Shown: piece after piece, positions 13,451 to 41,759 of the stretch
Numbering within the stretch: the stretch's first letter is position 1
Layout: each line of letters opens with the position of its first letter
NCBI RefSeq assembly: GCF_029254265.1
Contig: NZ_JAQWXX010000115.1
Coordinates: 1 to 64,000, forward strand
Source of the DNA: Algoriphagus sp.
GTDB lineage: Bacteria > Bacteroidota > Bacteroidia > Cytophagales > Cyclobacteriaceae
Direction of reading: 5' to 3'
DNA length: 64,000 nt
Notes under the pieces: generated by a model
What the model was told of the DNA's origin: nothing
Seen by the model: the letters and a program-made list of their open reading frames with translations, nothing else
Databases searched by the model: none
Position numbers and translations under genes: made by a program

Positions 13451-14209
13451 ATGAATACTCCTGAGAATTTAATCACTAGAAGAATGTTTCTGTCTAACAC
13501 ATCAAAGGCGAGCATCGCTTTGGGACTTGCTGGGACAGGAATTTTGAGTGCTTGCGCAACAGATGCGAATGGTGACGAGAAAGCTATCTTAGCAACCGCT
13601 TTTACGCAGACTCCATTAGCCTATGATTATGCAGCTTTAGCTCCCAATATTGATGCGATGACTATGGAAATCCATTATACTAAGCATGCTGCAGGATATG
13701 CCAAGAATCTAAACGATGCCATTGGTGAGGAAAATGTAGATACAAATAAGCCGTTGGAAGATGTCCTGAGTAAAATATCAAGCTATTCCACCAAGATGCG
13801 AAACAACGGGGGTGGACATTACAATCATGAATTGTTTTGGAAAGTAATGAGTCCAACCGGAGGTGGAAAACCTGAAGGCGATTTGGCAGCGGCAATTGAT
13901 TCCTCTTTTGGAAGTTATGATGCATTTGTGACCGAATTTGAAACAGCTGCAAAAACACGGTTTGGATCAGGCTGGGCTTGGCTAGTATTAGGAGAGGATA
14001 ATAAACTAGCAGTAGGATCAACTGCAAATCAAGACAATCCATTGATGGATATCTCCGAATTCAAGGGAGTTCCACTTTTGGGAATAGACGTTTGGGAACA
14101 TGCATACTATCTGAATTACCAAAACAAGCGTCCCGACTATGTTTCTGCTTTTTGGAATGTAGTAGACTGGAATACTGTGAGTCAGCTATTTACAGCAGCC
14201 TCTATGTAA
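13451..14209 (+). CDS. Fe/Mn superoxide dismutase with Tat-like lipoprotein signal
   Basis: Converts superoxide to hydrogen peroxide and oxygen. Metal ligands are visible at His75 (EIHYTKH), His126 (GGGHYNHELFW), Asp213 and His217 (GIDVWEHAYY). The GGG context resembles Mn-type enzymes, but metal choice is not certain. Unusually, the N-terminus has a twin-arginine segment (Arg10-Arg11-Met-Phe-Leu) followed by a hydrophobic stretch and a lipobox ending at Cys35 (ILSAC). This predicts export in folded form and lipid anchoring outside the cytoplasm. At 252 residues it exceeds the ~200 of cytosolic SODs by about the signal length. A terminator follows. Confidence 0.93.
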   Translation: MNTPENLITRRMFLSNTSKASIALGLAGTGILSACATDANGDEKAILATAFTQTPLAYDYAALAPNIDAMTMEIHYTKHAAGYAKNLNDAIGEENVDTNKPLEDVLSKISSYSTKMRNNGGGHYNHELFWKVMSPTGGGKPEGDLAAAIDSSFGSYDAFVTEFETAAKTRFGSGWAWLVLGEDNKLAVGSTANQDNPLMDISEFKGVPLLGIDVWEHAYYLNYQNKRPDYVSAFWNVVDWNTVSQLFTAASM

Positions 14210-14755: not shown

Positions 14756-15601
14756 TCAGGAAGTCTTCAGGCTTTTTCCCTGATGGTTTTTCAATTCAAT
14801 AATTCGGGCCGGTAGATTGTAGCCGGCCTTTTCTAATGCCGTCAAGACTTCCAAAATGGCATTACTTTTTACGACTACATCCAAAACATCACGATCGAAA
14901 GTATCCACCCAAATGGTTACTTGAAGATTCAAAGTGCTTTCAACAAGATCAGAAACCCAGACATTTGGACTTTTCTGATCTGACAACACTCCAGGTATTT
15001 TTGAGACTGTATTTAGAATCAATGCCATCGCTGCCTTATAGTCAGAACCATAGTCCAATCCGATGATAAAATCATAACGTAGAAATCCATCTATCGTAAA
15101 GTTGACGAGCGGGTTTTTTATTATTGTAGCGTTAGGTATAAAAACGTCTTTTCCATCGTTTGTCTTAATCTGAGTATCTCTAAGGTTTAGGGAAAGGATT
15201 TGCCCGCGAAATCCATTTATATCCACAAAATCACCAATCCTAAAAGGGGGCTTAAATGCAAGTATTATACCCGACAGGAAATTCTCACCAATATCCTTCA
15301 AAGCAAAACCAATAATGAAAGCTGAGATTCCGGCTCCGGTTAATACACCAGTAACCACACCTGATAGTCCCAAAAAGCGGAAAACAATCATAAAACCAAC
15401 CAGGATAACTATTAGTCTAAAAACAACTGAAATAAAATTCGCTAAAAGCAAATCATTCATTCGCTTAAGTAGTCTCCTTTTGAGAAGCTTTTGAAGCGTA
15501 TTGGCCAAAAAATAGAAGAGAATGATAATTCCCAAAGAAATGCCAAATGTCTTCAGTGTACCGTAAGTATCATCCAGATTTATACCGAAAAATGTTTCCA
15601 T
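14756..15601 (-). CDS. MscS-type small-conductance mechanosensitive channel
   Basis: An inner-membrane channel that opens on membrane tension to release solutes after osmotic downshock. At 281 residues it has three transmembrane helices (about 17-36, 55-78 and 82-110). The third contains the Gly/Ala-rich pore helix (GVLTGAGISAFIIGFALKD), followed by the MscS beta domain (FRIGDFVDINGFRG) and an alpha/beta C-terminal domain. It lies just beyond the tRNA-Leu fragment that ends the 12-kb block. A decayed homologue lies on the other side of that fragment. Confidence 0.93.
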   Translation of the reverse strand: METFFGINLDDTYGTLKTFGISLGIIILFYFLANTLQKLLKRRLLKRMNDLLLANFISVVFRLIVILVGFMIVFRFLGLSGVVTGVLTGAGISAFIIGFALKDIGENFLSGIILAFKPPFRIGDFVDINGFRGQILSLNLRDTQIKTNDGKDVFIPNATIIKNPLVNFTIDGFLRYDFIIGLDYGSDYKAAMALILNTVSKIPGVLSDQKSPNVWVSDLVESTLNLQVTIWVDTFDRDVLDVVVKSNAILEVLTALEKAGYNLPARIIELKNHQGKSLKTS

Positions 15602-15847: not shown

Positions 15848-16487
15848 CTATACCGCAAGAGATTTAACACCCTTTAAAACACTTGGACCTTGCTCTGTCA
15901 CCATTGAAGTTTTTATGAAATCTACCGCTTCTTGATAGTTTAGTCCTACAATGAAATCGTACCTTAAAAACCCATCAATGGTAAAATTGACGAGCGGGTT
16001 TTTGAGAATTATCTGGAATTAAAACATCTTTTCCATCTCCAGTTTTAATATGGGTATCTCAAAGTTTCAAAGTCAGCAGTTGAACTCTTATACCATTGAT
16101 ATCCAATCTATCTCCTGTGCGAAAAGGTCTTTTAAATGCCAAGATTATTCCAGAAAGGAAGTTTTCTCCGATATCTTTCAGCGCAAAGCCTATAATAAAT
16201 GCCGATATACCAGCTCCGGCCAACATTCCGGATACCACTCCGGTAAGTCCAATAATTCGCAGGATGATCATTATAACGACGATTATTACCAGTGATGCAA
16301 AAATCCCTGCAAGAAAATTGGCTAATAGATCATCATCCATTTTTTTGGTAAGCCTTTTCTCTAAAATTATTTTAGTCTTACGGGAGAGATAAATTAATAG
16401 GATTAGTGTACCCAGAGCAACACCAAAAAGAATAAGCTAGTTCTGAACTTCTACCCAGTCTATTGTGAAATTTTCAAAATCAATCAT
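15848..16487 (-). pseudogene. Decayed MscS channel gene
   Basis: This is a broken homologue of the intact mscS at 14756-15601. From a possible ATG at 16487 the reading is interrupted by an in-frame TAG after about 15 codons. It then resumes (ILFGVALGTLILLIYLS, then MDDDLLANF) and shares the pore segment AGAGISAFIIGFALKDIGEN with the neighbour. A frame disruption follows near 16055, after LDINGIRVQ. The piece NPLVNFTIDGFLRYDF continues in another frame, and the C-terminal ~80 residues are replaced by the tRNA-Leu fragment, with a stop at 15848-15850. Several independent lesions make function unlikely. Confidence 0.85.
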
Positions 16488-16561: not shown

Positions 16562-19099
16562 TTATTTAAGAGTAATGACAACATTTGCCATTCCACCACC
16601 GGATAAGGATGAAGCTATCCACTCTGGTAGAAGTGGATCACAAGACGAAGGTTGTGCACTACACCATGTGGCTCCTAAAGAATAGTAATAACTGCCTCCA
16701 CTAATACCTTTGGAATCGCTCTCTGGCCATCCGTAATAGCTTGGAGGACTTCCTCCATTTGCCCAGGATACTGTTTTGTTTTCGTAGGGATGCTTGTAAG
16801 GTGTTTTGAAGCCATAAGTTGTTACCGTGTAAGTTTTTGCATCTGAGTTAACTGGAACAATCACTAATGCATGAACCCCTGCGCTATAACCTCCACCCGG
16901 AGACGTTAACTTATAACTTTTTGCAGTTACTGGTATATTCAGAATTATTTTCTTAGGGTCGTTATTGACCTTTACTTTACCTGTGACCTCTTCTCTAAGA
17001 ATCCAATCGCCAGAACCAGGAACTCTAAAGTAAATACTTGCTTTGATGTTTTCTATACCTTCCAGTACATCTCCATCTATCGCTTGATAGTTAATAGCAT
17101 TGCCTCTAGTCGTGGCTATGGTGTTTTTCCCATCAAACATGCCATGCTTGCCTTCTGTGGACCATTCCACTTTATATTCTAAGGCACTGGTGCTCACGAT
17201 GTCATTGACATTGTCGCTTCGCTCTAGGTAAAGGCGTACCGATTGCTTCTTCTTTCCGCTCAGCGTGATACCATCCGGCTTCATCACTACTTTCTGCTTT
17301 TTCACATTGATCGTTGCTGTAGCATCACCTATCAAGGTCAAGTCAACGCCTTTTTTAATATATACTTCTACAGTTACAGTCTCTATATTATTTTCTTCCA
17401 AATCAGCTGCATTTACTTCACTTCTAAAGTTCACAGTAGCGGAGGTTGTTTCGATTTTAGGTCCTTTGAGGCCGCCTGTGGCCGTAATCACCCCATATTT
17501 TCCAGTAGTGGACCATTTGTACAAGAAGGATTGCCCTTCTCCAAGCTGGGTTTGCGTTTCTACCTTCAGAGGCAAATTAGCAAAAGCGACTACGGTCTCT
17601 TTTGCAGGGTTGATTTTTACATCGGTTCTACGGGCCTTAGCTGTGAACTCGACGATTCGATCAGACATAATCAACTCTGCTGTCAATTTACCCATATCGA
17701 GAAGTTTTACGCACATTTCAACCGCCTTGATTACTTTGAGGTATTTATCAACCGCAGCAGCATTCTGGTAGTCACGATTCAGATCGATCCAAGTAGGCTT
17801 ATCTAGATTTTTGTATTTATTGACAACAATTTTAATAAACTCCTCTTGAAGTTCTTTGCCTTGATTATCTACTACTATAAATTTTAAGAAATCTTCGATG
17901 GCTTTCTCAAAATTTCCGCTAATAATCAAATCCATAATTAGAGGAGTTTGTGAAATGGTCGCTTCAAAAGCATCAAAAGCTAAATTGTTTTCTTCTGCAC
18001 CTTTGATCTCGGAAATTATTTCAGAAAGAATGGGAAGAACAAAGTCCACATAGAACTGCTTGAGCATCAGTTTTTGCCAGGCAGCCTTTTCTTCGTTTGT
18101 CATGGTAAGCGAACTAGAAGGTCTAAATGCTGTACCTACTACTCGTACCTTATAAATCGCCTCATCTTCATTTTCTCCTAAAGCCAATGGAATTGGTCCA
18201 GATTCCTTTCGTGCATACTCTATACCGCTCCCCGAAACCCAGTCTGCGATGGTACCCAAGGTACTGCTAAACCCTTTTGTCCCTTCTACGTCCGCTGTAG
18301 AGTTAGCTGCTTGACCTGGTCCAATTGATGGAATCAATGGCACTACTTCTTTAGATCCTTTCGCTTTATAGGCAGTTTTATAGATGAATGCTTTTCCGAT
18401 TCTTCGGTAATGATTGGCAATCTTGATGTTCAAGGCATCATTTTCAAAAATCTGTATACCACTCTGAAAGCCATTAGGATCTACATTGATTTGCCTAGCT
18501 CTCATATCCAAAACTTCCACCTCCTTTGTATACTCACTCAGGAGTGTAGATAAATCCTGCTCGAACTTGAGATTTTCTACATATAACTTGTCACTACTTA
18601 TTCCAGCTACAACTCTAGTCTTAAATTCCTCATAGCCAGGAAGGGCTATTGACGGGGTAAGAAACTCATTTACTATTTCTTTTGGCATATAAAAAACACC
18701 AGAACCTAAGTAGAAAAGCGCTTGAGCTGTAGTCTCGGCATTCAAATTTTTATTCTTTGCACTCAAAACTCCCATTAGAATTAGGTTATTGGCATCATCG
18801 AATAAGTATCCCAAACGAACCACAGTATCGGGTAAAACGGCTTTAGTCTTTCCAGCAGCATCTACAGGGAAAGTCATGAGTCCTGTAGAAAGAGTAGCCT
18901 TAGACAAGTCAACATTTACTCCTGCAGGCAAGGATACGCTTATATCCACCGTTTGAGCAAGTGAAGTAGTGCCTCCTCCAGCGACAGGAGGATTTCCGGG
19001 ATCTGGAGTCGGAATTGTAGGATCTTCTGGATCAGTACAAGCGAATGCCAGCACCGAAAAAAGGATAAAAACCCATTTGAAGAGTTGTAAGTTTTTCAT
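16562..19099 (-). CDS. Large surface lipoprotein with two Ig-like repeats, function unknown
   Basis: An 845-residue predicted lipoprotein: signal peptide with lipobox LAFAC (Cys21), a Pro/Asp/Gly-rich tether (22-45), an N-terminal domain (about 48-150), a long helical middle (about 150-480), then two tandem beta-rich repeats. The repeats share WSTTGKYG / WSTEGKHG and a later VTVEVYIKK / IKASIYFRV segment (about 495-600 and 601-712). A Gly/Tyr/Trp-rich C-terminus follows. I do not recognise the family. The TGATGAC-N15-CGAT element sits 24 bases upstream of the start codon, tying it to the nearby ECF sigma factor. A decayed paralogue of its N-terminal half lies immediately upstream. Confidence 0.85.
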   Translation of the reverse strand: MKNLQLFKWVFILFSVLAFACTDPEDPTIPTPDPGNPPVAGGGTTSLAQTVDISVSLPAGVNVDLSKATLSTGLMTFPVDAAGKTKAVLPDTVVRLGYLFDDANNLILMGVLSAKNKNLNAETTAQALFYLGSGVFYMPKEIVNEFLTPSIALPGYEEFKTRVVAGISSDKLYVENLKFEQDLSTLLSEYTKEVEVLDMRARQINVDPNGFQSGIQIFENDALNIKIANHYRRIGKAFIYKTAYKAKGSKEVVPLIPSIGPGQAANSTADVEGTKGFSSTLGTIADWVSGSGIEYARKESGPIPLALGENEDEAIYKVRVVGTAFRPSSSLTMTNEEKAAWQKLMLKQFYVDFVLPILSEIISEIKGAEENNLAFDAFEATISQTPLIMDLIISGNFEKAIEDFLKFIVVDNQGKELQEEFIKIVVNKYKNLDKPTWIDLNRDYQNAAAVDKYLKVIKAVEMCVKLLDMGKLTAELIMSDRIVEFTAKARRTDVKINPAKETVVAFANLPLKVETQTQLGEGQSFLYKWSTTGKYGVITATGGLKGPKIETTSATVNFRSEVNAADLEENNIETVTVEVYIKKGVDLTLIGDATATINVKKQKVVMKPDGITLSGKKKQSVRLYLERSDNVNDIVSTSALEYKVEWSTEGKHGMFDGKNTIATTRGNAINYQAIDGDVLEGIENIKASIYFRVPGSGDWILREEVTGKVKVNNDPKKIILNIPVTAKSYKLTSPGGGYSAGVHALVIVPVNSDAKTYTVTTYGFKTPYKHPYENKTVSWANGGSPPSYYGWPESDSKGISGGSYYYSLGATWCSAQPSSCDPLLPEWIASSLSGGGMANVVITLK

Positions 19100-19123: not shown

Positions 19124-19149
19124 ATCGAAAAACTTAGAAAATGTCATCA
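19124..19149 (-). promoter_or_regulatory. Shared ECF-type promoter element (Ig-repeat lipoprotein)
   Basis: Minus strand TGATGAC (19149-19143), exactly 15 bases, then CGAT (19127-19124). The start codon at 19099 is 24 bases downstream. The same element occurs with identical spacing before three other genes of the block. Confidence 0.75.
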
Positions 19150-19211
19150 AAAATCTGAAAAATATTCTATCACTTGCCTAGATACGTCGTCTATTAAGCT
19201 TGAATGGATTA

Positions 19212-20720
19212 CTACATCTCTTTTCCTAGCTTTGAAATCAGCTCAATTGATTCCTCTCGATCAGAGGCTTTGAGGTACGGAGTTGCTTCGTCGAATTGCC
19301 CTTCCTTGATCATAATCAGAACCCTTTAATATCAAATCAATCGTTGTCAAAATTTTCGATTTTCGTACAGCAATTTTTTTAAAGTCCTCAATGCTTGGTT
19401 TTGGTAGATTAGCTGGAGCATTTTCCCAGATAGTTTCTGCAGCCACTCTGGCTAAATCCTCCAAAAAGATGGATCCAAATTGATTATATCCTATCGTGAA
19501 AAAATCTAACACAGCTTCAGAAAGTTCCCCATTTTGGACCTTCCCATTTACTGATGGCATTTGATCCAAATACCCCGCTACCGCTGTTATTAATGCTTCC
19601 CAAAAATCCTGTTGACCTTTCGGTGCTCCTGTGTTTTTAGATGCAGTAGCTTTCGCTGTCAAACCATCAGCAATCAATGGCACAACAAAATCTAAGGTAA
19701 AGGTTAATAAAATAATATTTGTTCTAGCAGAAATTTCAACCTGATTGAGATTAGTCGCGGACTTTCCCATACCTATTGCCCTTAGCTGCCACTCCACCTC
19801 TTTTTCATCCAAATCTAAAGGAATCTCAATTGCTCCAGTTTTGATTCGGAAAGATTTATCTGTATCTCCCAGTAAATAATCATAAACGGTGCCCGAAAAA
19901 CTGGTAACTACTTTAACCATAGAAATATCTATTTCCAAATCAGGAACGGATGCATTGTTTATTCCAGGGAATTCATTGACGGGTATCTTTTATCCAGACT
20001 CAACAATACTATATCTTTTATATAAAAACCCCTTCACTCTTCGGCGGAAGGTATTGGCGACTCCAAACTGGCTCAAACCAGTCTGGTAAACTTGTAAACC
20101 ACTTTGAATTTCTACATCTACCAACAAATCTGAAGCTTTCTTCTCTTCATTAGTCCTAGCATTTCTTAAATTTGGTGCAACTTTTTCGATCAAATCTGCT
20201 AAAGATTCTCCGATTTTACTTTCAGAAAGAAAAAATGGGTTAGCTATCCAAGCTGCTTCTACCGTATTTTTCCACTCATCCCAAATTGGGAAAGATTCTA
20301 CTTCATCAAAGAATTTCTCTGCGAGCTCAGATTCGAAAAATGGTCCTGACAAACCCCAATAGAGTAAGGTTTTTGCTGTGGTTTCAATATCTAAGTTTTG
20401 CTGATTTTAGTCTATCAATCCTGCAAGTAGAAGGCGGTCTTCTTTGTCAAATAAATAGGCGAAAGCAGGCTCATCCGGAAAAATTATCACTTTCACTACC
20501 TCATCCTCATCTAAAGAGCTAAGCTTATCCCAAGAAAGTATTTTTGCATCTGTCAAATCCGGTGCACTCCCTTCTGGGAATTTTACTTGAACAGAATAGG
20601 TACTATATCCTTCAAATGGATTTTCACTAGAAGGAGGGCTAGGAAGAATATCCTCTTCTCCCGATTCGGAAGAGAGCATAAATAGTGAAAAAAACAGTCC
20701 AAATACTAAAATATTCTTTT
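19212..20720 (-). pseudogene. Decayed paralogue of the Ig-repeat lipoprotein
   Basis: One reading frame from about 20715 to 19330 carries in-frame stops at 20407-20409 and 19990-19992 and aligns with the intact lipoprotein at 16562-19099. Examples are NLDIETTAKTLLYWG against NLNAETTAQALFYLG, and VEIQSGLQVY followed by VKGFLYKRYS against SGIQIFENDA followed by GKAFIYKTAY. The signal-peptide remnant (KNILVFGLFFSLF) lacks a start codon. After about 19310 the frame becomes a 33-residue scrap (MIKEGQFDEA..., 19313-19212) of unknown origin. The Ig-like repeat region is missing. The remnant follows the outer-membrane protein gene by about 30 bases and would once have shared its transcript. Confidence 0.8.
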
Positions 20721-20748
20721 AATAGTTGAATGATCTTTTTTTAAAATT

Positions 20749-21930
20749 TTACTTCCTCCAAAGAAGGTTTAGTCCAAAAGAGAATTGAAAAGTATTTTCT
20801 GTGAAGACATTAGGGTGGGTATAAATCTCTTCATTAAGAGAAGAAAGCTGCTTTGCTGTAATAAAATCAACTTGAATATCAAAAGGCATTTTTCCTCCAG
20901 TCAATTGATTTGTCGGTATCAACGTACCATATCCCCAGGTAAATCCTGCCCGGTTTCCGGTGACCCATAGTTCACCGGTATCTTTTGTGCCAGAAGGTCC
21001 TTTTTCGTTGAAATAACCCAAGCGTACTGCCAGTCTCTCAAAAAACCAAGCTTCAGCACCTACACCAAAAGCAGTATTACTCTCATGATCCGTAGTAGGG
21101 GCATCTGAACCCTTCAGATAATCTTGGTATTGGACATCAAGAGAAAAACGGACTTGTTGTGGAGAGTTCTGGAAATAACCTTTATCGACTATCCAGCCTG
21201 ATTTCAGAGAAGTGTCAAACTGATAACCTGCTCCTATCCGAAGAATTATGGGGAGGTATTCAACTGAGACTGAATTCTCGTAAGTTTGAAGAGTGGTATT
21301 CTTGAATAAAAAATTCGTTAAGGATAATGCACCTTTGATTCTTTGGTTCTCAAAGCTCTCAGATTTAATAAGTGGAAGCTCTTTTTCGTATTGAAAACCT
21401 ACACTAGGCATAAAATCTGAATTCGTCTGCTCTCCATTAATAGCGTTTTCTTCCATCAGATTTATCCCTAAACCCATCTCTAACTCTTCGAAGATTTGAT
21501 AGGATACCACCGCAGATAGTACGCTTTGGGCGAAAAAGTCCGTATCATAAGTTACTCCTCCGATGATGGTAGTCCAAACCGGATCAGGGTTTCTGTAGGT
21601 GAAATAAGAAAGCCCAATCGCTAATTTGGGATTAATCTTGTAGGCGCCTCCTACAAAATAGTAATGCGAGTCCGGTCTATAAGAGTGTCCATTGGCATAG
21701 TTGGCATATACCTGTACTGGAACTCCTGTATTTCCAATAGCTGCGGGATTATAAAAAGAGTTCTCAATGCCCCCTTTGGTCAAGGTAGTAAAGCCCATTG
21801 CCTGCGACCTTGCACTTGTCAATTGATTGTTCAAAAGACCAAAATAGCCTGGAGGATAATAGTATAAAGTTTGTGAAAAAACAGGGAAGCTTAAGCAGGC
21901 CGCTAAAAATAAAGTAACTAGATTTTTCAT
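20749..21930 (-). CDS. Outer-membrane beta-barrel protein (PorV/UPF0164-like)
   Basis: A predicted 393-residue outer-membrane protein. It has a signal peptide (1-19, ending FSQ), then a segment typical of the PorV/PorQ/FadL-like group (SARSQAMGFTTLTKGG, then SFYNPAAIG). Alternating amphipathic beta strands run to a C-terminal strand ending in an aromatic-rich segment (FQFSFGLNLLW). PorV-type proteins serve type IX secretion or uptake. Which role applies here is unknown. It has its own TGATGAC-N15-CGAT element, about 24 bases upstream of the start. Confidence 0.8.
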   Translation of the reverse strand: MKNLVTLFLAACLSFPVFSQTLYYYPPGYFGLLNNQLTSARSQAMGFTTLTKGGIENSFYNPAAIGNTGVPVQVYANYANGHSYRPDSHYYFVGGAYKINPKLAIGLSYFTYRNPDPVWTTIIGGVTYDTDFFAQSVLSAVVSYQIFEELEMGLGINLMEENAINGEQTNSDFMPSVGFQYEKELPLIKSESFENQRIKGALSLTNFLFKNTTLQTYENSVSVEYLPIILRIGAGYQFDTSLKSGWIVDKGYFQNSPQQVRFSLDVQYQDYLKGSDAPTTDHESNTAFGVGAEAWFFERLAVRLGYFNEKGPSGTKDTGELWVTGNRAGFTWGYGTLIPTNQLTGGKMPFDIQVDFITAKQLSSLNEEIYTHPNVFTENTFQFSFGLNLLWRK

Positions 21931-21953
21931 AGGATAAGAAGTTTTAACTACCC

Positions 21954-21979
21954 ATCGTATGAATTTTAAAAAGTCATCA
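21954..21979 (-). promoter_or_regulatory. Shared ECF-type promoter element (outer-membrane protein)
   Basis: Minus strand TGATGAC (21979-21973), 15 bases, CGAT (21957-21954). The start codon at 21930 is 23 bases downstream. The element lies between the anti-sigma-like gene and the barrel-protein gene, separating their transcription. Confidence 0.75.
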
Positions 21980-21993
21980 AAAATTTAAAGTTT

Positions 21994-22722
21994 TTATTTG
22001 AGCTCTTCCAGCAGTGTCTTGGCATCAGGCTTTTGTAATTCCTTCAGTAGGCTTTTCGCCATTTCAATTTCACCCTTTTTCAAATAAAGTAAGGCCAAAT
22101 ACCACTTGGCCTCTTCACTGAACTCGGTATCCCTTCCATTGACTAAGTTGGTCAACAAACCCTCACTTTGCTCGTATTTTTCTAATTCCAATTTTGCCAT
22201 TGCAACAAAATATACCAAGGTGTCTTGACTACTATCGGCTTCTAAAAGGGGCTCCCAAAACTGCAATGACCCCGTATAATTCTCAGATTTAAAATCTACC
22301 ATTCCCCGATCAAATTCATAACTATCTGTTCCCGACATTGCAGTGATCAGTCCAGGATCAGTCTCGTAATACGCCTCAAAAAGTCTTTCATTCTTATTTT
22401 GAAACAAGCCAAGAAAACTAGCCCCTGCTATTAATAAAAATAAAATGGACGCGGCTATTGCCAAGGGCCAGAATGAATTTATTTTAAGTTTATTGGATCG
22501 CCTATTAAAGTTTTCCTGATGTATTTTCTCAATCTCTTCTTTGAACAAATAGTTTTCCAGACCCTGCTTAAGGAACTTTACTTCCTCTATTTTTAGGTTC
22601 CAGTCTGGGTCGCTAGCTTCAAAATTTTTAAATTCAATCTCCTCCTTTTTAGAAAGACAATCCTCTAAAAATCCTTCGATAACTTCGTATTCCTTTGGGG
22701 CTATATTTAGGTCTTTTGCCAT
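21994..22722 (-). CDS. Membrane-anchored TPR protein, probable anti-sigma factor
   Basis: A 242-residue protein encoded 5 bases after the ECF sigma gene. The N-terminal ~75 residues are soluble, acidic/helical and would face the cytoplasm. One transmembrane helix (about 84-107) is followed by a periplasmic region with TPR-like repeats (about 130-240: RGMVDFKSENYTGSLQFW, KWYLALLYLKKGEIEMA). Position and topology are those of a sigma-regulating protein. No zinc-binding anti-sigma motif (HxxxCxxC) is present, so the assignment rests on context. Confidence 0.75.
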   Translation of the reverse strand: MAKDLNIAPKEYEVIEGFLEDCLSKKEEIEFKNFEASDPDWNLKIEEVKFLKQGLENYLFKEEIEKIHQENFNRRSNKLKINSFWPLAIAASILFLLIAGASFLGLFQNKNERLFEAYYETDPGLITAMSGTDSYEFDRGMVDFKSENYTGSLQFWEPLLEADSSQDTLVYFVAMAKLELEKYEQSEGLLTNLVNGRDTEFSEEAKWYLALLYLKKGEIEMAKSLLKELQKPDAKTLLEELK

Positions 22723-22727
22723 TGATT

Positions 22728-23312
22728 TTATTTTTGGATGATTTTTCTAAGCGTCTCCATACAGCGATACTTATTATTTTTGGCTGTCTGAGGAGTCCAA
22801 CCAAACTTTTCTGCTAATTCCCCAATAGAAGCTTTCTCGAAATAAAAACTTTTTAACAGTTCCTTACAGTTATCTCCTAAATCTTTAAAAGCAGTTTTTA
22901 ATCGATTAAGCTTTTCTTCATAGTCATCTGTTTCTTCCTCATGAGAAAAAGAAAAGTTTTGATCTCCTAATGCAACCACTTTTTTGTATTTACTAGACCT
23001 CAACCAATCCAACCATTTATTTTTAGCTACTTGGTAAATAAAACCCTGAAGAGATGAGGCATTCTCAGGTTTAAATCCTCCTGATTTCACTTGTTGCCAG
23101 GCTACAATAAACGCCTCTTGATAAATATCTTTTGCCTGATCCTCATCCCCATTATTTTTTAATATATAAGTTCTGACTTTTGGAAATCCCTCTTTGTACA
23201 TTTCGGTAAGAGCTTCCGATCTGTTTTCACAGATTTTTTTTATAAGTTCTTCTTGAGAAAGTGTACGAATGGAATCTTTTGGCATAAATATAAAGTTGCC
23301 AAAAAGATACAC
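22728..23312 (-). CDS. ECF-family RNA polymerase sigma factor
   Basis: A sigma-70 family regulator of 185-194 residues. Region 2 is visible in DIYQEAFIVAWQQV and FIYQVAKNKWLDWLR, and region 4 HTH in IGELAEKFGWTPQTAKNNKYR. The internal ATG at 23285 (MPKDSIRT) is the more likely start, because the residues before it are hydrophobic and unlike the family N-terminus. It forms an operon with the TPR anti-sigma candidate (5-base gap). Its own upstream region lacks the TGATGAC-N15-CGAT element found before four neighbours, so it is probably expressed from a housekeeping promoter and controls the neighbours (inference). Confidence 0.92.
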   Translation of the reverse strand: MYLFGNFIFMPKDSIRTLSQEELIKKICENRSEALTEMYKEGFPKVRTYILKNNGDEDQAKDIYQEAFIVAWQQVKSGGFKPENASSLQGFIYQVAKNKWLDWLRSSKYKKVVALGDQNFSFSHEEETDDYEEKLNRLKTAFKDLGDNCKELLKSFYFEKASIGELAEKFGWTPQTAKNNKYRCMETLRKIIQK

Positions 23313-23356
23313 TTAAATCCATTTTATCCCAAGAGTTCTACCTCTAATAGAGTAGA

Positions 23357-24541
23357 TTAAAACTGATCAATATCCTGATATACATTGATATCCTTAGTTA
23401 ATAGTTCTACCATTAATGCATCGTGTGCATTAGCAAAATTGGAATAATTCGTCTTAGTATAATCTGCGTTTCCATTGAATATCAGTGTAACTGCCATTCC
23501 ATTTGAATGAAACATGTATCCGGATCTTGTACCTGGAAGTGCTCCGTAGAAATATTTAAATTGATTGGACTTTGCAATTCCATTTGCAAAATTTTGGTTA
23601 GGGTTTGACCCTTGGATAAACTGATTATAGAAATCAGATCTGAGCAGATCAGGTTTTGATGCGTTTCCATCCATGGCAACTACTATCTTCATTAAATCCA
23701 CTGCCGTAGTTACAATTCCTGCATCTCCATCTCGTCTCTCAATATTGAAATTATATTCAAATCCTTTAGTATCTCCTTGTCCATAATAAGTAGCTTCATT
23801 GGCCTGCTTACCTGACAATCCATTTTTTGCTAATACTGTAGAGCCCATCTTTAATGGATCTGTGATAGACTCCTTTACAAACTGACTGTAAGATTTACCG
23901 GAAACTTTTTCAACGATTCTGGCAGCCACAAAATAATTGGAATTGATATACCAATATTGAGATCCAGGTTCAAAATTCAATGTTGCATTATCCAGCATCC
24001 AGTCGAAATAGCTTTCATTTGTTAGGGTTTGTTGATAGTCGATAGCATCTCTGTTTCCATTTATTACCCATCCTCCAGAGGTCATTTGAAGTAGGTGCTT
24101 CACAGTGACTTGGCTTACCCGAGCTGAATATGGTTTTGAACCGTAAGAATTTCCCAAGATGCCCATATCACCAAACACCTTGTCGTCTAGGTTAATTCTA
24201 CCCTCCTGAACAAGTAGCATGATTGCTAACCCAGTGAAGCTTTTTGAAACACTTGCCACTCTCATTTGAGTTTGTGGGGTCATCGCCTTCCCAGACTGAA
24301 CATCCTGTAAACCGAAAGCTTTTTGGTAGACTAACTTACCATTTTTGGAAATTGCCAAACTTGCTCCTGGGATTTCATGATCCAAAAGAAATTTCTCGAC
24401 TTTAGCATCTACACTGAGGATATCCTCTTGTTTTTCGATTGGAGTTGGATCAGGATCGTCATTACTGGAACAAGCTAATGATGAGATCAAAATCAAGAAG
24501 ATCAGAGAAAATTGATAAAAGAAGTTGAATTGTTTTTTCAT
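23357..24541 (-). CDS. Serine hydrolase lipoprotein (class C beta-lactamase-like family)
   Basis: A predicted lipoprotein of the serine beta-lactamase/penicillin-binding-protein-like hydrolase family (394 residues from this start). The signal peptide ends in SLACS. The nucleophile motif is SVSK (in RVASVSKSF) and the second motif is the Tyr/Asn region WYINSNYF. The usual C-terminal HTG/KTG triad appears changed (ALPGTRSGY). True beta-lactamase activity is not implied: esterase or D-aminopeptidase roles are as likely. An in-frame ATG at 24574 would lie within the promoter element (24575-24600) and would spoil the signal peptide, so the start at 24541 is preferred. Confidence 0.87.
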   Translation of the reverse strand: MKKQFNFFYQFSLIFLILISSLACSSNDDPDPTPIEKQEDILSVDAKVEKFLLDHEIPGASLAISKNGKLVYQKAFGLQDVQSGKAMTPQTQMRVASVSKSFTGLAIMLLVQEGRINLDDKVFGDMGILGNSYGSKPYSARVSQVTVKHLLQMTSGGWVINGNRDAIDYQQTLTNESYFDWMLDNATLNFEPGSQYWYINSNYFVAARIVEKVSGKSYSQFVKESITDPLKMGSTVLAKNGLSGKQANEATYYGQGDTKGFEYNFNIERRDGDAGIVTTAVDLMKIVVAMDGNASKPDLLRSDFYNQFIQGSNPNQNFANGIAKSNQFKYFYGALPGTRSGYMFHSNGMAVTLIFNGNADYTKTNYSNFANAHDALMVELLTKDINVYQDIDQF

Positions 24542-24574
24542 GTGATTAGAAAGTTTTGGTTCTCTTTCCTTCAC

Positions 24575-24600
24575 ATCGTATTACTTTAAAAAAGTCATCA
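24575..24600 (-). promoter_or_regulatory. Shared ECF-type promoter element (serine hydrolase)
   Basis: Minus strand TGATGAC (24600-24594), 15 bases, CGAT (24578-24575). The first three bases are the TGA stop codon of the CHAT gene, so the element is embedded at that gene's 3' end. It supports 24541 as the hydrolase start. Confidence 0.75.
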
Positions 24601-27600
24601 CACCCTTGCAAATCTTTTCCTAAAGAAGAAAAGAAGTAAAACCAAGAAAAGTACACTCAAAACCAAGGTATTGTAGGGAAATTTAGGACGAATAGTTATA
24701 GGGTCGTTATTTCCTAACAATATTAAACCAGCCCAGAAGGATGGGGCCAATTCTCTTCCTTTAGCTGTAGATAAATATTCCAGTTTTGCCAATCGAAGTG
24801 CCTCATCCTTACTTTTTCCTTCCTGCAAGAAGCCATAAAATAAAGATGTAATTCTGACACTAGCTTTTTCATCAATTTTCCAGAGGCCCATTAAAAGTGA
24901 TTTTGTACCTGAATAATTGAATGCATGAGCTAGTGAAACCATGCCCTCCCCAGGGGAATATGTAGGCTTACCAGACTCACAAGCAAGCAAAACCGTTAGA
25001 TCTGCTCTAAGATCTAGTTTATAAATCTCACTTGAATAAATCTCATTAGGGGACGAAGGGTCTTCTTGGGATTTCGCAAAAATCAAGCGAGAATCCCCAG
25101 GATTTACATTATCAGAAATAGCATGCGTTCCTATATGAATTATTTGATTATTTCCAGCCCAATCTTTAAAGTTCTTGGCTGTGGAATAACTTTCTAAAAA
25201 TGCTTTCCCTCCGAATTTTGTTATCACTTCATTGACTAACTGCCGAGTAAAAGGCTGAGGAATTAATTGAAGATAAGCAAGATCTAAGATTTTATTATTC
25301 TGTTGATTATCACGATACGTTTTTTTCATTTGGTCAAAAAATCCAGGAGCAAAGGCAACCATTTGATTTTCATAAACTTTCTCTTCGATAGGTTCTATAA
25401 ACAAAAGTCCATATTGATAAGAAATACTATGTTTTGCCAATAGCGATGAAGATGCTAATTCATCCCAATTTTGAATTTTTTTGAAGGTCATCGTTTCAAA
25501 ACTCAAATTGAAAAGTGGCCCATCTGGAATAATTACAACTCGTTCACTCAGAATTTCTGCTGAAGCGGGCATCCAAAGTTGCTCGTAAAGATGAAAAAGC
25601 AATTCCTTGCTAAAATTTCTTTCGTAGGCTTCATCCGATAACTTACTTAAGTTTCTTTCAATAGCAACAGATTCCAAGGATATCAGCTTTTTCTTATTCC
25701 CGTTGAGAATCAATAATTTCCATTCTTCACCTACTTTTAGATACCTGAGGTAGGTGATTTCGGGGTTCAATTGAGTGTAAATACGATTCAAAGTACTTTC
25801 GCTTGACTCGAAATGCAATTGATAATATTGAGGGAAATTTATCCTGAGTGAGTCCATAAAGCTATCCCAAACTTGACTTATCTTCCTAAACTGAGTAAGA
25901 TTCTGATCCTCCGACTCTAGAAACGCTTTGAGCTGTTTTTTCAATTCTTCTTCACGATCAATTATTGTCTCAGGAACTCCACCATATTTAATAGACTTAT
26001 TTTTTTGAAGTCTCGTTCTGATCTGCCGGTAGCGAGCATATTCATGAAATGCAAGGAGCCTATCAAGATAAATTTGATTTTGAGAAAGTTGATAGAGTTC
26101 TAATTCAATTTTATTAAGGAAATCAAAGTAATCCCGGTTTAAATCCAATAAGATATTAATATCCAGAGTTTCTACTAATAGATCCGTTTTTGAGTCTAAA
26201 ATTTTCAATCCTTCTCTGAGTTCCTTTTCAACAGCCTGTAGGAATTGAATATCTTTTTCATCAACCAAAGCATACCTACTTCTATTTTTAATCAAAATTG
26301 CCGTAGGCTTTTGAAAGGTCATTTGAAGGGAATCAGCAGGAGATTTTGACTTCTTGATCAATTGATCTGCTAGCTCCAAAGCTGCAGTAGCTTGGTTGTA
26401 TGACCGTGAAAAATCCTTTCCCAATTCATAGATTGAGGCGAGATTTATACTTTGTTCAAATTCTAGGTATAGGTTTTCTGAATCAAGTTCCTCAAGATAT
26501 TTTCCTGCCAATTTTGAGATTCTTACAGCTTCAGAAAGCTGTTGATTTTCAGCCAAAAATTTACTGTAGTTTTTTAAAAAACCCAGAAAGATAACATCGT
26601 ATTCTCCTTGAAGAGATTCCTCAAATAAGGCTTTTGCCTCTAAATAAAGTGAATCGGCTCTCAGTTCATTCCCCTCGTAGTCTTCCAATCTTGCCAGTGC
26701 ATAAACTGCATCTGCTTGATAATAAGTAGTGACTTCATTGGCGTTTCGAATATTTTGCAAGCCTTGATTCAAATTTGCTCTAGATTTTGAAAGTTGCAAT
26801 ATTTCTAAATAAAGCTGGCCTAAAAATATTCTTGATTTTGCTGTTTCGATATCTTCATCTCCAAACTCTTCTGCTTTTCTTCGAAAAGAATATTCTAAAA
26901 GTTGTAAGGCTTGATGATATGCACCTTTCTGCTTGTAGAGCCCAGCCAGATTGTCAGTTGCCTGAAAGTAAAAGCTGATTGCATCTTTGTATTGTGCGGG
27001 ATCCAAATCAGACACTTGATATTTTTCCAAGCTAGAGATGGTCTCTTGCATGGATATTTCTGCATTTTGATAGTCACCTTGAGCAATCTGTACACCTGCA
27101 AGATTATTGTTTATAATACTATTCCTGTAGAATTGATTCTTTGGTGTCGCTGGTAATTTATCAATTGCCAACAGTGCTTTTCTATAATAAAAAGCAGCCG
27201 AGTCTAAATTGCTCGTGAAATAGGAAATATTTCCAAGGCTACTATTTGCCAAATAAATGGATTCGGGATCTTGGTCCAAAACCTCTAAATCCAAGGCTTC
27301 TTTTAAGTATTTCTTCGCTTCAGGCAGATTCATCGTATTTACTGCCAAACCACCCAAGCTCAAGTAAATTTGAGCAATAACAAAATTATTCTTTGGGGAT
27401 TCTTTTTCAGCCCAGTCTAATGCTTCCAATTGAGTTTCAAAAGCTGAAGAAAAATTCCCTTGATATTTATACCAGCTGGATAAGCTCATAGCTAGCTTTC
27501 GCTTTGAACTGGCCAAATCCATTGTTTTATTCCAGTCGTGATATATCTCCAAAAGGCTTTTAGTGATAGCTGTATTAGATTGCTTTGCTTCTAATGCCCT

Positions 27601-27810
27601 CCCATAGATTTCCAAATAGTTAGATAGGCTATCTTGAAATGCATTTTGGATAAGATCATCGGTTGTATTTTTGATTTGCTCCAGTGCAAGTTCAGCTTTA
27701 CCCTCCTTAATCAATTGGTCCCAATGCTCTATTTTGTTTTCTTGCTGGTAATTATTCAGCATAGAAAACAGAACTAATATCAATGAAACTACTTCGGTAA
27801 ACTTTGGCAT
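24598..27810 (-). CDS. Exported TPR-CHAT (caspase-like) protein with C-terminal membrane anchor
   Basis: A protein of 1070 residues. It has an N-terminal hydrophobic signal-like segment (about 5-20), an array of tetratricopeptide repeats (about 100-560), a helical linker, and a C-terminal CHAT domain with the caspase-type dyad His896 (IIHIGTHA) and Cys944 (VLLACESG). One transmembrane helix (about 1047-1063) and a short basic tail (RKRFARV) follow. That topology places TPR and CHAT domains in the periplasm. CHAT domains are clan CD protease relatives; no substrate is known here. The open frame extends upstream to 27972, but that runs through the promoter element and tRNA-Leu, so ATG 27810 is chosen. 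Confidence 0.87.
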   Translation of the reverse strand: MPKFTEVVSLILVLFSMLNNYQQENKIEHWDQLIKEGKAELALEQIKNTTDDLIQNAFQDSLSNYLEIYGRALEAKQSNTAITKSLLEIYHDWNKTMDLASSKRKLAMSLSSWYKYQGNFSSAFETQLEALDWAEKESPKNNFVIAQIYLSLGGLAVNTMNLPEAKKYLKEALDLEVLDQDPESIYLANSSLGNISYFTSNLDSAAFYYRKALLAIDKLPATPKNQFYRNSIINNNLAGVQIAQGDYQNAEISMQETISSLEKYQVSDLDPAQYKDAISFYFQATDNLAGLYKQKGAYHQALQLLEYSFRRKAEEFGDEDIETAKSRIFLGQLYLEILQLSKSRANLNQGLQNIRNANEVTTYYQADAVYALARLEDYEGNELRADSLYLEAKALFEESLQGEYDVIFLGFLKNYSKFLAENQQLSEAVRISKLAGKYLEELDSENLYLEFEQSINLASIYELGKDFSRSYNQATAALELADQLIKKSKSPADSLQMTFQKPTAILIKNRSRYALVDEKDIQFLQAVEKELREGLKILDSKTDLLVETLDINILLDLNRDYFDFLNKIELELYQLSQNQIYLDRLLAFHEYARYRQIRTRLQKNKSIKYGGVPETIIDREEELKKQLKAFLESEDQNLTQFRKISQVWDSFMDSLRINFPQYYQLHFESSESTLNRIYTQLNPEITYLRYLKVGEEWKLLILNGNKKKLISLESVAIERNLSKLSDEAYERNFSKELLFHLYEQLWMPASAEILSERVVIIPDGPLFNLSFETMTFKKIQNWDELASSSLLAKHSISYQYGLLFIEPIEEKVYENQMVAFAPGFFDQMKKTYRDNQQNNKILDLAYLQLIPQPFTRQLVNEVITKFGGKAFLESYSTAKNFKDWAGNNQIIHIGTHAISDNVNPGDSRLIFAKSQEDPSSPNEIYSSEIYKLDLRADLTVLLACESGKPTYSPGEGMVSLAHAFNYSGTKSLLMGLWKIDEKASVRITSLFYGFLQEGKSKDEALRLAKLEYLSTAKGRELAPSFWAGLILLGNNDPITIRPKFPYNTLVLSVLFLVLLLFFFRKRFARV

Positions 27811-27846
27811 TTCAAAATGGATGATTAAAAAAATCCTTTTTCTTAT

Positions 27847-27872
27847 ATCGTTTAAGTTAAAGAAAGTCATCA
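27847..27872 (-). promoter_or_regulatory. Shared ECF-type promoter element (CHAT gene)
   Basis: Minus strand TGATGAC (27872-27866), 15 bases, CGAT (27850-27847), 36 bases before the start codon at 27810. It lies between the tRNA-Leu terminator and the CHAT gene. Confidence 0.75.
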
Positions 27873-28310: not shown

Positions 28311-29108
28311 TCAGAAATCATAAGAGGCAAGAATTTTTATCATCTCCCCCATATTTCTTGCATTTAGTTTCTTTAGGATATTTTTTCTATGAGTTCCGAC
28401 TGTATTCATAGAAATATTTAGTGTTTCGCTCACCTCTTTGGATTTTTTTCCATCCAAAATCATTTGAGCAATTTCTTTTTCCTTTTTAGTCAGTTTTACA
28501 TTATTGTCTTTTGGTGAGCTTTTGCTGACATAGACTCTAGACCCGTCTTCTTTTTGATAAGAATAATTCCAATCATAGCTAGTTACCTTCGGCTGATTTT
28601 GCAATTGAATAATGATATGCAAATCAATCGCAAAATTCCCATCAGAATCAATCAAGAATGGTTTGGCTTTCCCGACAGTCCATATAATCTCATTAGTAGT
28701 TCGATGGACCCAACGAGTGGTGTAAGAGAACTCAAAACTATGTCGCTCCTTCATGGTCAATTGATGAAAAACGTCAAAGACAATTTTCTGGAATCGAAAT
28801 AACTCTGGTCGATCACCAGGATGAATCATGGAAAAAGAAGCCTCCATCCCTTTTTCACGAAAGATAGACTCTGGGTAACCCGTAATTTCCTCTACATTTC
28901 CTGTAAAAAAAGCTAAATCCAAATTTCGGTAGTCAAAACAAGCAATCACGAATCCTTCCCGCATTCCAATGTTTTTACTCAAAACCTCTAATTCTTCCAA
29001 AACTTTTGCTTCATCTGGGTGGTCTTTGAACTCCTGTTCCTGCCACTCTTTGAAAAATTTGGTGTACTTATTTTGTCTTTTTAAGTCCTTTAAAAGTACT
29101 TTATCCAT
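28311..29108 (-). CDS. PAS-domain LuxR-type transcriptional regulator
   Basis: A 265-residue cytoplasmic regulator without a receiver domain. Residues about 50-165 form a PAS-like sensory fold (DYRNLDLAFFTGNVEEITGY, SMIHPGDRPEL). Residues about 200-260 form a LuxR HTH (LTKKEKEIAQMILDG, then SKEVSETLNISMNTVGTHRKN). The ligand and targets are unknown. Similar PAS-HTH regulators are common in Bacteroidota. The gene stands alone beside the tRNA-Gly gene, outside the repeat-bounded block. Confidence 0.85.
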   Translation of the reverse strand: MDKVLLKDLKRQNKYTKFFKEWQEQEFKDHPDEAKVLEELEVLSKNIGMREGFVIACFDYRNLDLAFFTGNVEEITGYPESIFREKGMEASFSMIHPGDRPELFRFQKIVFDVFHQLTMKERHSFEFSYTTRWVHRTTNEIIWTVGKAKPFLIDSDGNFAIDLHIIIQLQNQPKVTSYDWNYSYQKEDGSRVYVSKSSPKDNNVKLTKKEKEIAQMILDGKKSKEVSETLNISMNTVGTHRKNILKKLNARNMGEMIKILASYDF

Positions 29109-39893: not shown

Positions 39894-41759
39894 ATGTTTC
39901 CAATATATGATGTAATTGTTGTAGGTGCAGGGCATGCCGGATGTGAGGCTGCACATGCTGCTGCAAAAATAGGCGCCAAGGTACTTTTGTGTACAATGAA
40001 CATGAACACAATTGCACAAATGTCTTGCAATCCTGCGATGGGAGGAGTCGCAAAAGGGCAAATAATAAGAGAGATAGATGCTTTAGGAGGAATGTCTGGA
40101 ATTATATCAGACAAGTCAATGATCCAGTTTCGAATGCTTAACCGATCAAAGGGTCCAGCAATGTGGTCTCCAAGAAGCCAGAATGACCGAATGAAGTTTG
40201 CAGAAGAATGGAGACTTGCCCTAGAACAAACTCCCAACGTAGACTTTTGGCAAGAAATGATCACTGGTATCCTAACGAAAGATGGAAGAGTGGTAGGAGT
40301 AAGGACAGGGATTGGTATCGAAATTAGTTCTAAATCAGTTGTTTTAACCAACGGTACTTTCTTAAACGGCATTATCCATATTGGAGAAAAGAAATTCGGA
40401 GGTGGAAGAACAGGTGAATCTGCATCAAAAGGCATTACAGAGCAATTAGTAGAGTTAGGCTTCCAATCAGGAAGGATGAAAACCGGAACTCCGCCTAGAG
40501 TAGATGGTAGAAGTTTGGACTATTCAAAAATGGAAGTTCAATACGGAGATGAAAACCCTGAAAAGTTTAGCTACGACGATAGCACTAGTGCTTTAAAAGA
40601 ACAAAGAACTTGTTGGATCACCTATACCAACAAAGCGGTTCATTCAAGCTTGGAAGAAGGCTTTGATCGATCTCCAATGTTTAATGGTAGAATTCAAGGA
40701 TTAGGACCAAGATATTGTCCATCTATAGAAGATAAAATCAATCGGTTTGCAGAGCGTGATCGTCATCAGATTTTTGTCGAGCCGGAAGGATGGAATACCG
40801 TTGAGATGTACATCAACGGTTTCTCAACATCACTTCCAGAGGATATTCAATATAAAGCAATGCGACAAATCCCTGGATTTGAAAATGCTAAAATGTTTAG
40901 ACCAGGATATGCGATCGAATATGATTTCTTTCCACCTACTCAACTTCGCTTGACATTAGAAACACAGCTGATTGAAAACCTTTATTTTGCAGGACAAATA
41001 AATGGCACAACCGGATATGAGGAAGCTGCATCTCAAGGATTGGTAGCAGGAATAAATGCAGCTCTCAAAATAAAAGAAGAAGAACCTTTTTTACTTAAAA
41101 GATCAGATGCCTATATCGGTGTTCTAATTGATGATTTAATAAACAAAGGTACAGAGGAACCATATCGCATGTTCACTTCGAGGGCTGAATTTAGATTATT
41201 ACTTCGGCAAGATAATGCTGATTTAAGACTGACTCCAATGGGTCACCAAATCGGTTTGGCCTCAGATGAGAGATTAGAAAAGGTCATTATCAAAAAAGAA
41301 AATACTGCCCGTTTAATCAATGATTTAAAGCAGAGAAAGGCAGAACCAAACATTTTTAATACAGGCTTAGAATCATTAAACTCCGCAACGATTAGAGAAA
41401 AGGTTTCTCTTGAACAATTACTTAAGAGACCTCAGATAGGAATTCAGGATTTGATCAGGATAAATTCAGAAACCTCTGTTTATCTAAGTAAATATGCCAA
41501 GGACGAACTAGAACAAGCAGAAATTCAGATTAAGTATGATAGTTACATCGACAAAGAGCAACAAATGGTCGATAAGCTTAGTAACATGGAGAATTACAAA
41601 ATTCCACTGCAATTTGACTATCTAGCAATTACAGCGCTTTCAGCAGAGGGAAAACAAAAACTGAGCAAAGTAAGACCAGAGACACTTGGACAAGCATCTC
41701 GAATAAGTGGCGTATCCCCGGCAGATTTATCCATCATCACAGTATATTTAGGAAGATAA
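39894..41759 (+). CDS. mnmG: tRNA uridine-5-carboxymethylaminomethyl modification enzyme MnmG (GidA)
   Basis: With MnmE, this FAD protein modifies the wobble uridine of several tRNAs. It has 621 residues: N-terminal FAD-binding VVVGAGHAGCEAA, a second signature GRGTGES-like segment (FGGGRTGESASK), the conserved PPRVDGRSLDY and PGYAIEYDFFP, and a helical C-terminus ending in the MnmE/tRNA-binding part (ARISGVSPADLSII). The gene is often near oriC in bacteria, which agrees with the parS sites and the DnaA boxes beyond it. Confidence 0.97.
   Translation: MFPIYDVIVVGAGHAGCEAAHAAAKIGAKVLLCTMNMNTIAQMSCNPAMGGVAKGQIIREIDALGGMSGIISDKSMIQFRMLNRSKGPAMWSPRSQNDRMKFAEEWRLALEQTPNVDFWQEMITGILTKDGRVVGVRTGIGIEISSKSVVLTNGTFLNGIIHIGEKKFGGGRTGESASKGITEQLVELGFQSGRMKTGTPPRVDGRSLDYSKMEVQYGDENPEKFSYDDSTSALKEQRTCWITYTNKAVHSSLEEGFDRSPMFNGRIQGLGPRYCPSIEDKINRFAERDRHQIFVEPEGWNTVEMYINGFSTSLPEDIQYKAMRQIPGFENAKMFRPGYAIEYDFFPPTQLRLTLETQLIENLYFAGQINGTTGYEEAASQGLVAGINAALKIKEEEPFLLKRSDAYIGVLIDDLINKGTEEPYRMFTSRAEFRLLLRQDNADLRLTPMGHQIGLASDERLEKVIIKKENTARLINDLKQRKAEPNIFNTGLESLNSATIREKVSLEQLLKRPQIGIQDLIRINSETSVYLSKYAKDELEQAEIQIKYDSYIDKEQQMVDKLSNMENYKIPLQFDYLAITALSAEGKQKLSKVRPETLGQASRISGVSPADLSIITVYLGR

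Follow-up and report, generated by a model that had tools for sequence, protein, structure and literature searches.

The DNA that we analysed (hereafter, the window) is a 64,000-nucleotide stretch from an Algoriphagus sp., and comparison of its sequence groups it with Algoriphagus. It carries a minus-strand gene cluster that is transcribed in the order TPR-CHAT protein, serine hydrolase, ECF sigma factor, putative anti-sigma factor, outer-membrane barrel, a broken second lipoprotein gene, and a large lipoprotein, LipoA. The TPR-CHAT protein (24598-27810; 1070 aa) was recognized by the Pfam CHAT family (E = 7.3e-33), alignment, hydropathy and a structure model, and is laid out as an N-terminal hydrophobic segment, a TPR solenoid, a CHAT domain with H896 and C944, and a C-terminal TM-like segment. 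The serine hydrolase (23357-24541) has a beta-lactamase fold (Pfam Beta-lactamase, 8.3e-55) and a lipoprotein-type signal, its lipobox having been read from the sequence. After a gap of 71 nt comes the ECF sigma gene (22728-23285; Sigma70_r2, 7.9e-10; TIGR02937, 2.4e-22), which we analysed from the start at 23282, that is, without the first methionine. Its product of about 185 aa consists of regions 2 and 4 only, with Sigma70_r2 above cut-off and TIGR02937 above cut-off over residues 23-181.

Five nucleotides further on lies the gene of the putative anti-sigma factor (21994-22722), a protein that would bind and inhibit the sigma factor. It has the layout of a membrane anti-sigma factor: it adjoins the sigma gene and has N-terminal helices forming a cytosolic domain, one TM segment (about residues 85-103) and an exported C-terminal TPR domain, the topology being deduced from the sequence and a structure model. 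The model (mean pLDDT 79) contains the N-terminal helices, the TM helix and the TPR helices. A fold search with it listed mostly TPR domains among its PDB matches, none below E 0.001, and no protein of the cluster matched an anti-sigma domain in Pfam at E 0.01. Next is a PorV/FadL-like barrel (20749-21930; NF033709 PorV_fam, 8.3e-19, below the curated cut-off). Behind the barrel, 19261-20679 holds three open pieces that, searched piecewise, match successive parts of the behind-barrel gene of four relatives at 53-80%. LipoA (16562-19099; 845 aa) has homologs in relatives and no match in Pfam or NCBIfam at E 0.01. Outside the cluster, a short open frame at 16059-16340 resembles, by eye, part of an MscS-type channel gene (14756-15601) and is perhaps a decayed copy. 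The earlier note had described a sigma/anti-sigma pair lying among genes for a large lipoprotein, a barrel, a serine-hydrolase lipoprotein and a CHAT protein, and these are the gene kinds that we find.

Four of these genes are preceded on the minus strand by the element TGATGAC-N15-CGAT. Element 1 (27847-27872) stands before the CHAT gene (ATG at 27810), element 2 (24575-24600) before the serine-hydrolase, sigma and anti-sigma genes (ATG at 24541), element 3 (21954-21979) before the barrel gene (ATG at 21930) and element 4 (19124-19149) before LipoA (ATG at 19099). Counted from the final T of CGAT, the start codons follow at 36, 33, 23 and 24 nt, respectively. A pattern search thus returned all four elements where the earlier note had put them, with both boxes, the 15-base spacer and the 23 to 36 bases to the start codons that it had given. 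Its description of the promoter as identical holds for the boxes and not for the spacers, which differ except for a T-rich start. Dinucleotide shuffles of the window gave a mean of 0.01 matches, and 0 of 100 shuffles reached four. Allowing one mismatch returned the same four sites and added none, in line with the claim that the window has no further such element. With the spacer set to 17 bases there is a single minus-strand match, starting at 40768 (0.05 expected in shuffles). The opening TGA of element 2 doubles as the stop codon of the CHAT gene, an overlap also present in 9 of 22 CHAT genes of relatives. Directly before the sigma gene there is no element in the window. Because element 2 would serve the serine hydrolase, sigma and anti-sigma genes, however, the sigma factor would be autoregulated through its operon, and the same element does stand before the sigma operon and the target genes, as in an autoregulated ECF regulon.

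The earlier note proposed a genome scan with TGATGAC-N14-16-CGAT. Over 4.75 Mb this pattern gave 14 matches, more than the 6 of a reversed-pattern control, yet with 6 in the control the bare boxes are not specific genome-wide. A sharper pattern, GATGACNWNNTN{10,11}CGATR, requires, besides the boxes, a W and a T near the start of the spacer and a purine following CGAT. It matched exactly the four window sites, with 0 in the reversed control. Since it matches nothing else in the genome, the regulon of this Algoriphagus sp. would, judged by motif, be wholly local.

We then compared relatives. Among 117 genomes searched, the organism's own included, sigma orthologs (at least 42% identity) occur in ten genomes besides its own; an eleventh (G117, 58% identity) was added from later searches. 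A profile of the anti-sigma factor gave 13 loci, from A. marincola, A. formosus, A. iocasae, A. antarcticus, A. marinus, A. winogradskyi, A. litoralis, A. faecimaris, two more Algoriphagus, a MAG labelled A. marincola, Cognataquiflexum rubidum and a Cyclobacteriaceae MAG. In stretches of up to 20 kb, relatives with an orthologous sigma factor, in Algoriphagus and other Cyclobacteriaceae, carry the element before the same kinds of genes, with a spacer of 15 or 16. Ten loci from other genera and a MAG (L098, L100 and L133-L140) were held out, none having been used in defining the motif. They contain 28 TGATGAC-N15/16-CGAT sites, against 0.05 in 20 shuffles, and 23 of the 28 stand 8-160 nt upstream of the ATG of an ORF. 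Spacers of 12-14 and 17-19 gave 0-2 matches per set and none upstream of an ORF ATG; the two matches with spacer 14 in the held-out set (0.00 in shuffles) both lie within genes.

Over 21 ortholog loci, the window excluded, 59 of 66 NGATGAC-N15/16-CGAT sites stand before an ORF start. By gene kind, the element is upstream of 17/26 LipoA genes, 13/17 serine hydrolases, 7/8 barrels, 10/22 CHAT genes and, directly, 7/21 sigma genes, and of none of the 22 anti-sigma genes. The pattern is missing before 12 of 22 CHAT and 9 of 26 LipoA genes, some of which lie within operons or have variant or cut-off sites. Of ten genus CHAT genes, five have CGATGAC replacing TGATGAC (L048-L052), L057 has no form of the box and the others have other variants. 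An alignment of 27 sites from the window and ten genus loci has a T-rich spacer start, G after CGAT in 26 sites and A eight bases further on in 21; only the columns outside the boxes are informative here, because the sites were picked by their boxes. Sites beyond the main locus also precede lipoproteins: LipoA paralogs in L086 and L145, small lipoproteins (194-195 aa, similar by eye) in L074 and L146, and one of 169 aa in L242. In G390 (L251) another such site lacks an ORF of 60 aa immediately downstream. Two loci, L144 (G117) and L099 (A. litoralis), hold two module copies side by side, both with TGATGAC..CGAT elements. In another, L134, two lipoprotein paralogs are preceded by identical copies of the promoter (13868-13893 and 16704-16729), which probably arose by recent duplication.

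The presence of the sigma factor in every locus with the element follows partly from how loci were chosen. Genome-wide pattern searches are free of that bias, and for these we used a strict pattern, TGATGACNWNNTN{10,11}CGATG. Among the 72 genus genomes, 14 have matches, 33 in all, compared with 3 for the reversed control. All 12 genus genomes with a sigma ortholog have matches (31 in total), as against 2 of the 60 without one, a group that includes the two genomes with a divergent sigma factor described below. Those two have one match each, both inside genes and one antisense. A family sample of 35 genomes among the matches listed gave a similar split, with strict matches in 7 of 8 genomes that have a window-type anti-sigma factor and 5 of 27 others (reversed control, 2). 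The exception among the eight, G338, has the sigma factor and module, and CAAT and CGATGAC forms in place of a strict match. Four of the five matches without a window-type anti-sigma factor lie inside ORFs (two antisense), and one, in G265 (L241, 1501-1526), is intergenic. The G265 site is near-identical to the sequence before LipoA in a relative (L100) and lies between the two genes that in L100 border the module; G265 itself has a far weaker best sigma match. The site is apparently a promoter that remained when the module was lost.

In A. faecimaris (G059) and G019 the sigma factor is divergent, at only 36% identity. Their loci lack the CGAT form and have three TGATGAC-N15-CAAT matches, all before genes, compared with 0.05 in shuffles; a fourth site, before the G059 sigma gene (L058), has TAAT. 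In ECF structures the corresponding region-2 and region-4 segments contact the -10 and -35 boxes, respectively. The region-2 loop of these two sigma factors reads LFPG in place of the usual xPxN (A for P in L057), and the region-4 helix [KR]N[NST]KYRC and the -35 box are both kept. In a sigma tree the CAAT pair is supported at 100/99, and the CGAT group lies on one side of a modestly supported branch (55/91). The CAAT pattern is not exclusive to the pair: the held-out set has 3 matches (0.40 in shuffles), and over 24 genomes it gave 12 matches in 9 genomes (reversed control, 4), of which three fall in the G059/G019 loci and two others in these genomes lie inside ORFs. Because two CAAT sites (in L137 and L140) stand before genes despite a sigma factor of the usual type, a strict -10 switch is disfavoured. 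A change from CGAT to CAAT appears to track divergence of the sigma factor, not cleanly and in two genomes. The opening C shared by CGAT, CAAT and CGAC, the last from the paralogous module below, agrees with a statement in the portion of PMC8103513 available to us.

A paralogous sigma/anti-sigma/CHAT module has a common layout in 17 loci, one of them in the organism's own genome (L211, contig 98); three of the 17 were placed in the sigma tree. Its sigma factor differs from the window type in both the region-2 and region-4 segments. An alignment inspected by eye first revealed a different element, GRTTACA-N16-CGAC, of which there are 42 sites in the 17 loci when the first box may end in A or G; shuffles gave 0.05. 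No match was found in these loci with spacers of 13-15 or 17-19, and the 21 ortholog loci and the window have 0 sites. The element is upstream of the sigma gene in 15/17 loci and of a lipoprotein of 241-244 aa in 12/17, and TGATGAC..CGAT matches twice in the 17 loci. A short form of the GRTTACA element is not specific, since it gave 3 matches in the organism's own genome (two in the contig 98 locus) compared with 5 in the reversed control.

The local ECF regulon that the earlier note had ascribed to this sigma factor, then on grounds of proximity, is supported by four comparisons: phylogenetic footprinting, presence and absence across genomes, an altered -10 box beside an altered sigma factor, and a paralog with a different element. 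These make it highly probable, in our judgement, that the ECF sigma factor encoded at 22728-23285 uses the element as its promoter. TGATGAC would be the -35 box and CGAT the -10 box, and the sigma factor with RNA polymerase would start transcription just downstream of CGAT at the four places. It would thereby switch on the CHAT gene, the barrel, the large lipoprotein, and the serine-hydrolase/sigma/anti-sigma operon, through which it would amplify itself. The membrane anti-sigma factor would retain the sigma factor until an envelope signal reached the exported TPR domain. Counting against the promoter reading, 12 of 22 CHAT and 9 of 26 LipoA genes lack the pattern, G338 has no strict match, the -10 change is not clean, and TGATGAC..CGAT also occurs twice at the paralog loci.

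We considered three other readings of the element. In the first, it is conserved for some other reason, as a promoter of housekeeping type or as a signal in an RNA leader. The conserved bases downstream of CGAT could belong to a leader. In contrast, over the 21 ortholog loci the start codon lies anywhere between 22 and 149 nt from the element, the element overlaps the CHAT stop codon in relatives, and most genomes that lack the sigma factor (58 of 60 in the genus) or the window-type anti-sigma factor (22 of 27 in the family sample) also lack the strict form. The housekeeping-type promoter pattern of Bacteroidota is TTTG/TAnnTTTG, and we did not find it in the 300 nt before the four starts. This reading is very unlikely. 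Slightly less likely still is that the element is the site of another regulator rather than a sigma promoter. A candidate lies next door, where a LuxR-type regulator with a PAS fold (28311-29108) is encoded about 440 nt upstream of element 1. Its homologs (65% identity or more), however, occur only in L053-L056 and L144 of the 21 ortholog loci (stretches of 14.5-20.7 kb), and the element is asymmetric, has -35/-10 spacing and changes along with the sigma factor. Finally, duplication of a promoter segment does occur, because two L134 sites are identical over the printed stretch, but chance or recent duplication of one segment has a negligible probability here, as the window spacers and flanks differ and the same boxes stand before homologous genes in the ten held-out loci. 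With this evidence, we reject the LuxR neighbour as reader, a housekeeping promoter, chance and duplication.

Three known systems come closest to this locus. The RpoE-RseA type of E. coli is an autoregulated system of an ECF sigma factor and a membrane anti-sigma factor. The window system resembles it in its ECF sigma factor, adjoining single-span anti-sigma gene and autoregulation through its own operon, and in an asymmetric -35/-10 pair with a short spacer and a cytosine in the -10 box. It differs in that its anti-sigma factor has no Pfam anti-sigma domain at E 0.01 and an exported part made of TPRs, and in that its regulon is, by motif, wholly local with a CHAT protein in the module. A second resemblance is to the type III-E CRISPR (CASP) locus of Csx29, Csx30 and CASP-sigma, which, in the part of PMC10028731 available to us, likewise combines a TPR-CHAT protein, a sigma inhibitor and an ECF sigma factor in one locus and has sigma motifs inside that locus. 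The window sigma factor scores weakly against the III-E sigma model (37.7 bits; cut-off 100). A type III-E locus is marked by a Cas7-11 effector with a CRISPR array; leaving this weak score aside, the matches listed for the scanned cluster proteins were to other families and included no Cas family. The window CHAT protein differs from that system in its N-terminal hydrophobic and C-terminal TM-like segments, and the window anti-sigma factor in being a membrane TPR protein. Last, according to the portion of PMC8999054 that we could consult, CHAT-domain proteins occur in the genetic context of the ECF54 group, so that a CHAT protein beside an ECF sigma factor is common to both, a likeness of described context; there, unlike in the window, ECF54 is discussed under control without an anti-sigma factor.

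What the CHAT protein does in the module is a separate question. All 23 window-type loci have a CHAT gene in the stretch retrieved. As eight genomes hold only 2-5 CHAT genes each, this linkage is far above chance. The same was seen in 19 of the 20 next-nearest ECF loci, which are no control for linkage because they belong to the same sigma/anti-sigma/CHAT superfamily. At distant anti-sigma loci a CHAT gene was within the stretch in 26 of 49 and missing in 23, some stretches being cut by contig ends. The CHAT domain (PF12770) keeps its His-Cys pair: over 83 domain hits, His fills its column in 68/68 and Cys in 69/69, the remainder being partial matches, and the pair is present in 13/13 proteins of a smaller alignment. 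By our own thresholds, 42 CHAT proteins (22+2+13+5) and that of the window have a hydrophobic N-terminus and a TM-like C-terminus. The structure model supports the TPR solenoid and the C-terminal helix, with low confidence in the CHAT part. When the CHAT alignment was searched against solved structures, most of the matches listed were TPR proteins, and a single CHAT-domain protein appeared weakly (E 0.047).

Two roles can be weighed. In one, to which we give about an even chance, the regulon is as described and the CHAT protein acts as an effector on surface lipoproteins or the cargo of the barrel, which it would process, the anti-sigma factor being released by other proteases or by ligand binding. 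The CHAT, serine hydrolase, barrel and lipoprotein genes do carry the element, as effectors would, and 23 of the 49 distant anti-sigma factors are without a CHAT gene in the stretch examined. Against this role stand the near-constant presence of CHAT in the window-type and next-nearest ECF loci, given so few CHAT genes per genome, and a published precedent: Csx29, the TPR-CHAT protease of type III-E CRISPR, cuts a sigma inhibitor, as described in the available part of PMC10028731. In the other role, the exported, membrane-tethered TPR-CHAT protein may cut the anti-sigma factor, or a partner, in the periplasm and so control release. The Csx29 cleavage and the CHAT proteins noted near ECF54 make a releasing protease attractive, and we put it forward tentatively, at rather less than an even chance. 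The 23 distant anti-sigma loci without a CHAT gene and the low confidence of the CHAT part of the model count against it.

Among the papers listed by literature searches on ECF, CHAT and anti-sigma proteins in Bacteroidota or Algoriphagus, none describes such a module or promoter in Bacteroidota in its title and abstract, although the main ECF classification may assign this sigma factor to a group. To our knowledge, the promoter codes of Bacteroidota ECF sigma factors are little known. The comparison presented here pairs a sigma factor with its -35/-10 code and adds both a naturally occurring -10 variant and a paralogous module whose code differs, and with these in hand, sigma-promoter specificity is directly testable. 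The modules also offer candidate orthogonal sigma-promoter pairs, and a caspase-like protease emerges as a possible part of envelope sigma control, with a CRISPR-linked protease as its precedent. More tentatively still, Bacteroidota may possess a widespread family of modules that sense the envelope: an exported, caspase-like TPR-CHAT protease tethered to the membrane would cut a TPR anti-sigma factor and free an ECF sigma factor, and each module would have a private code (TGATGAC..CGAT, TGATGAC..CAAT or GRTTACA..CGAC), so that several could work in one cell and not cross-talk. If this is true, the CRISPR-linked Csx29 pathway would have a counterpart in the envelope.
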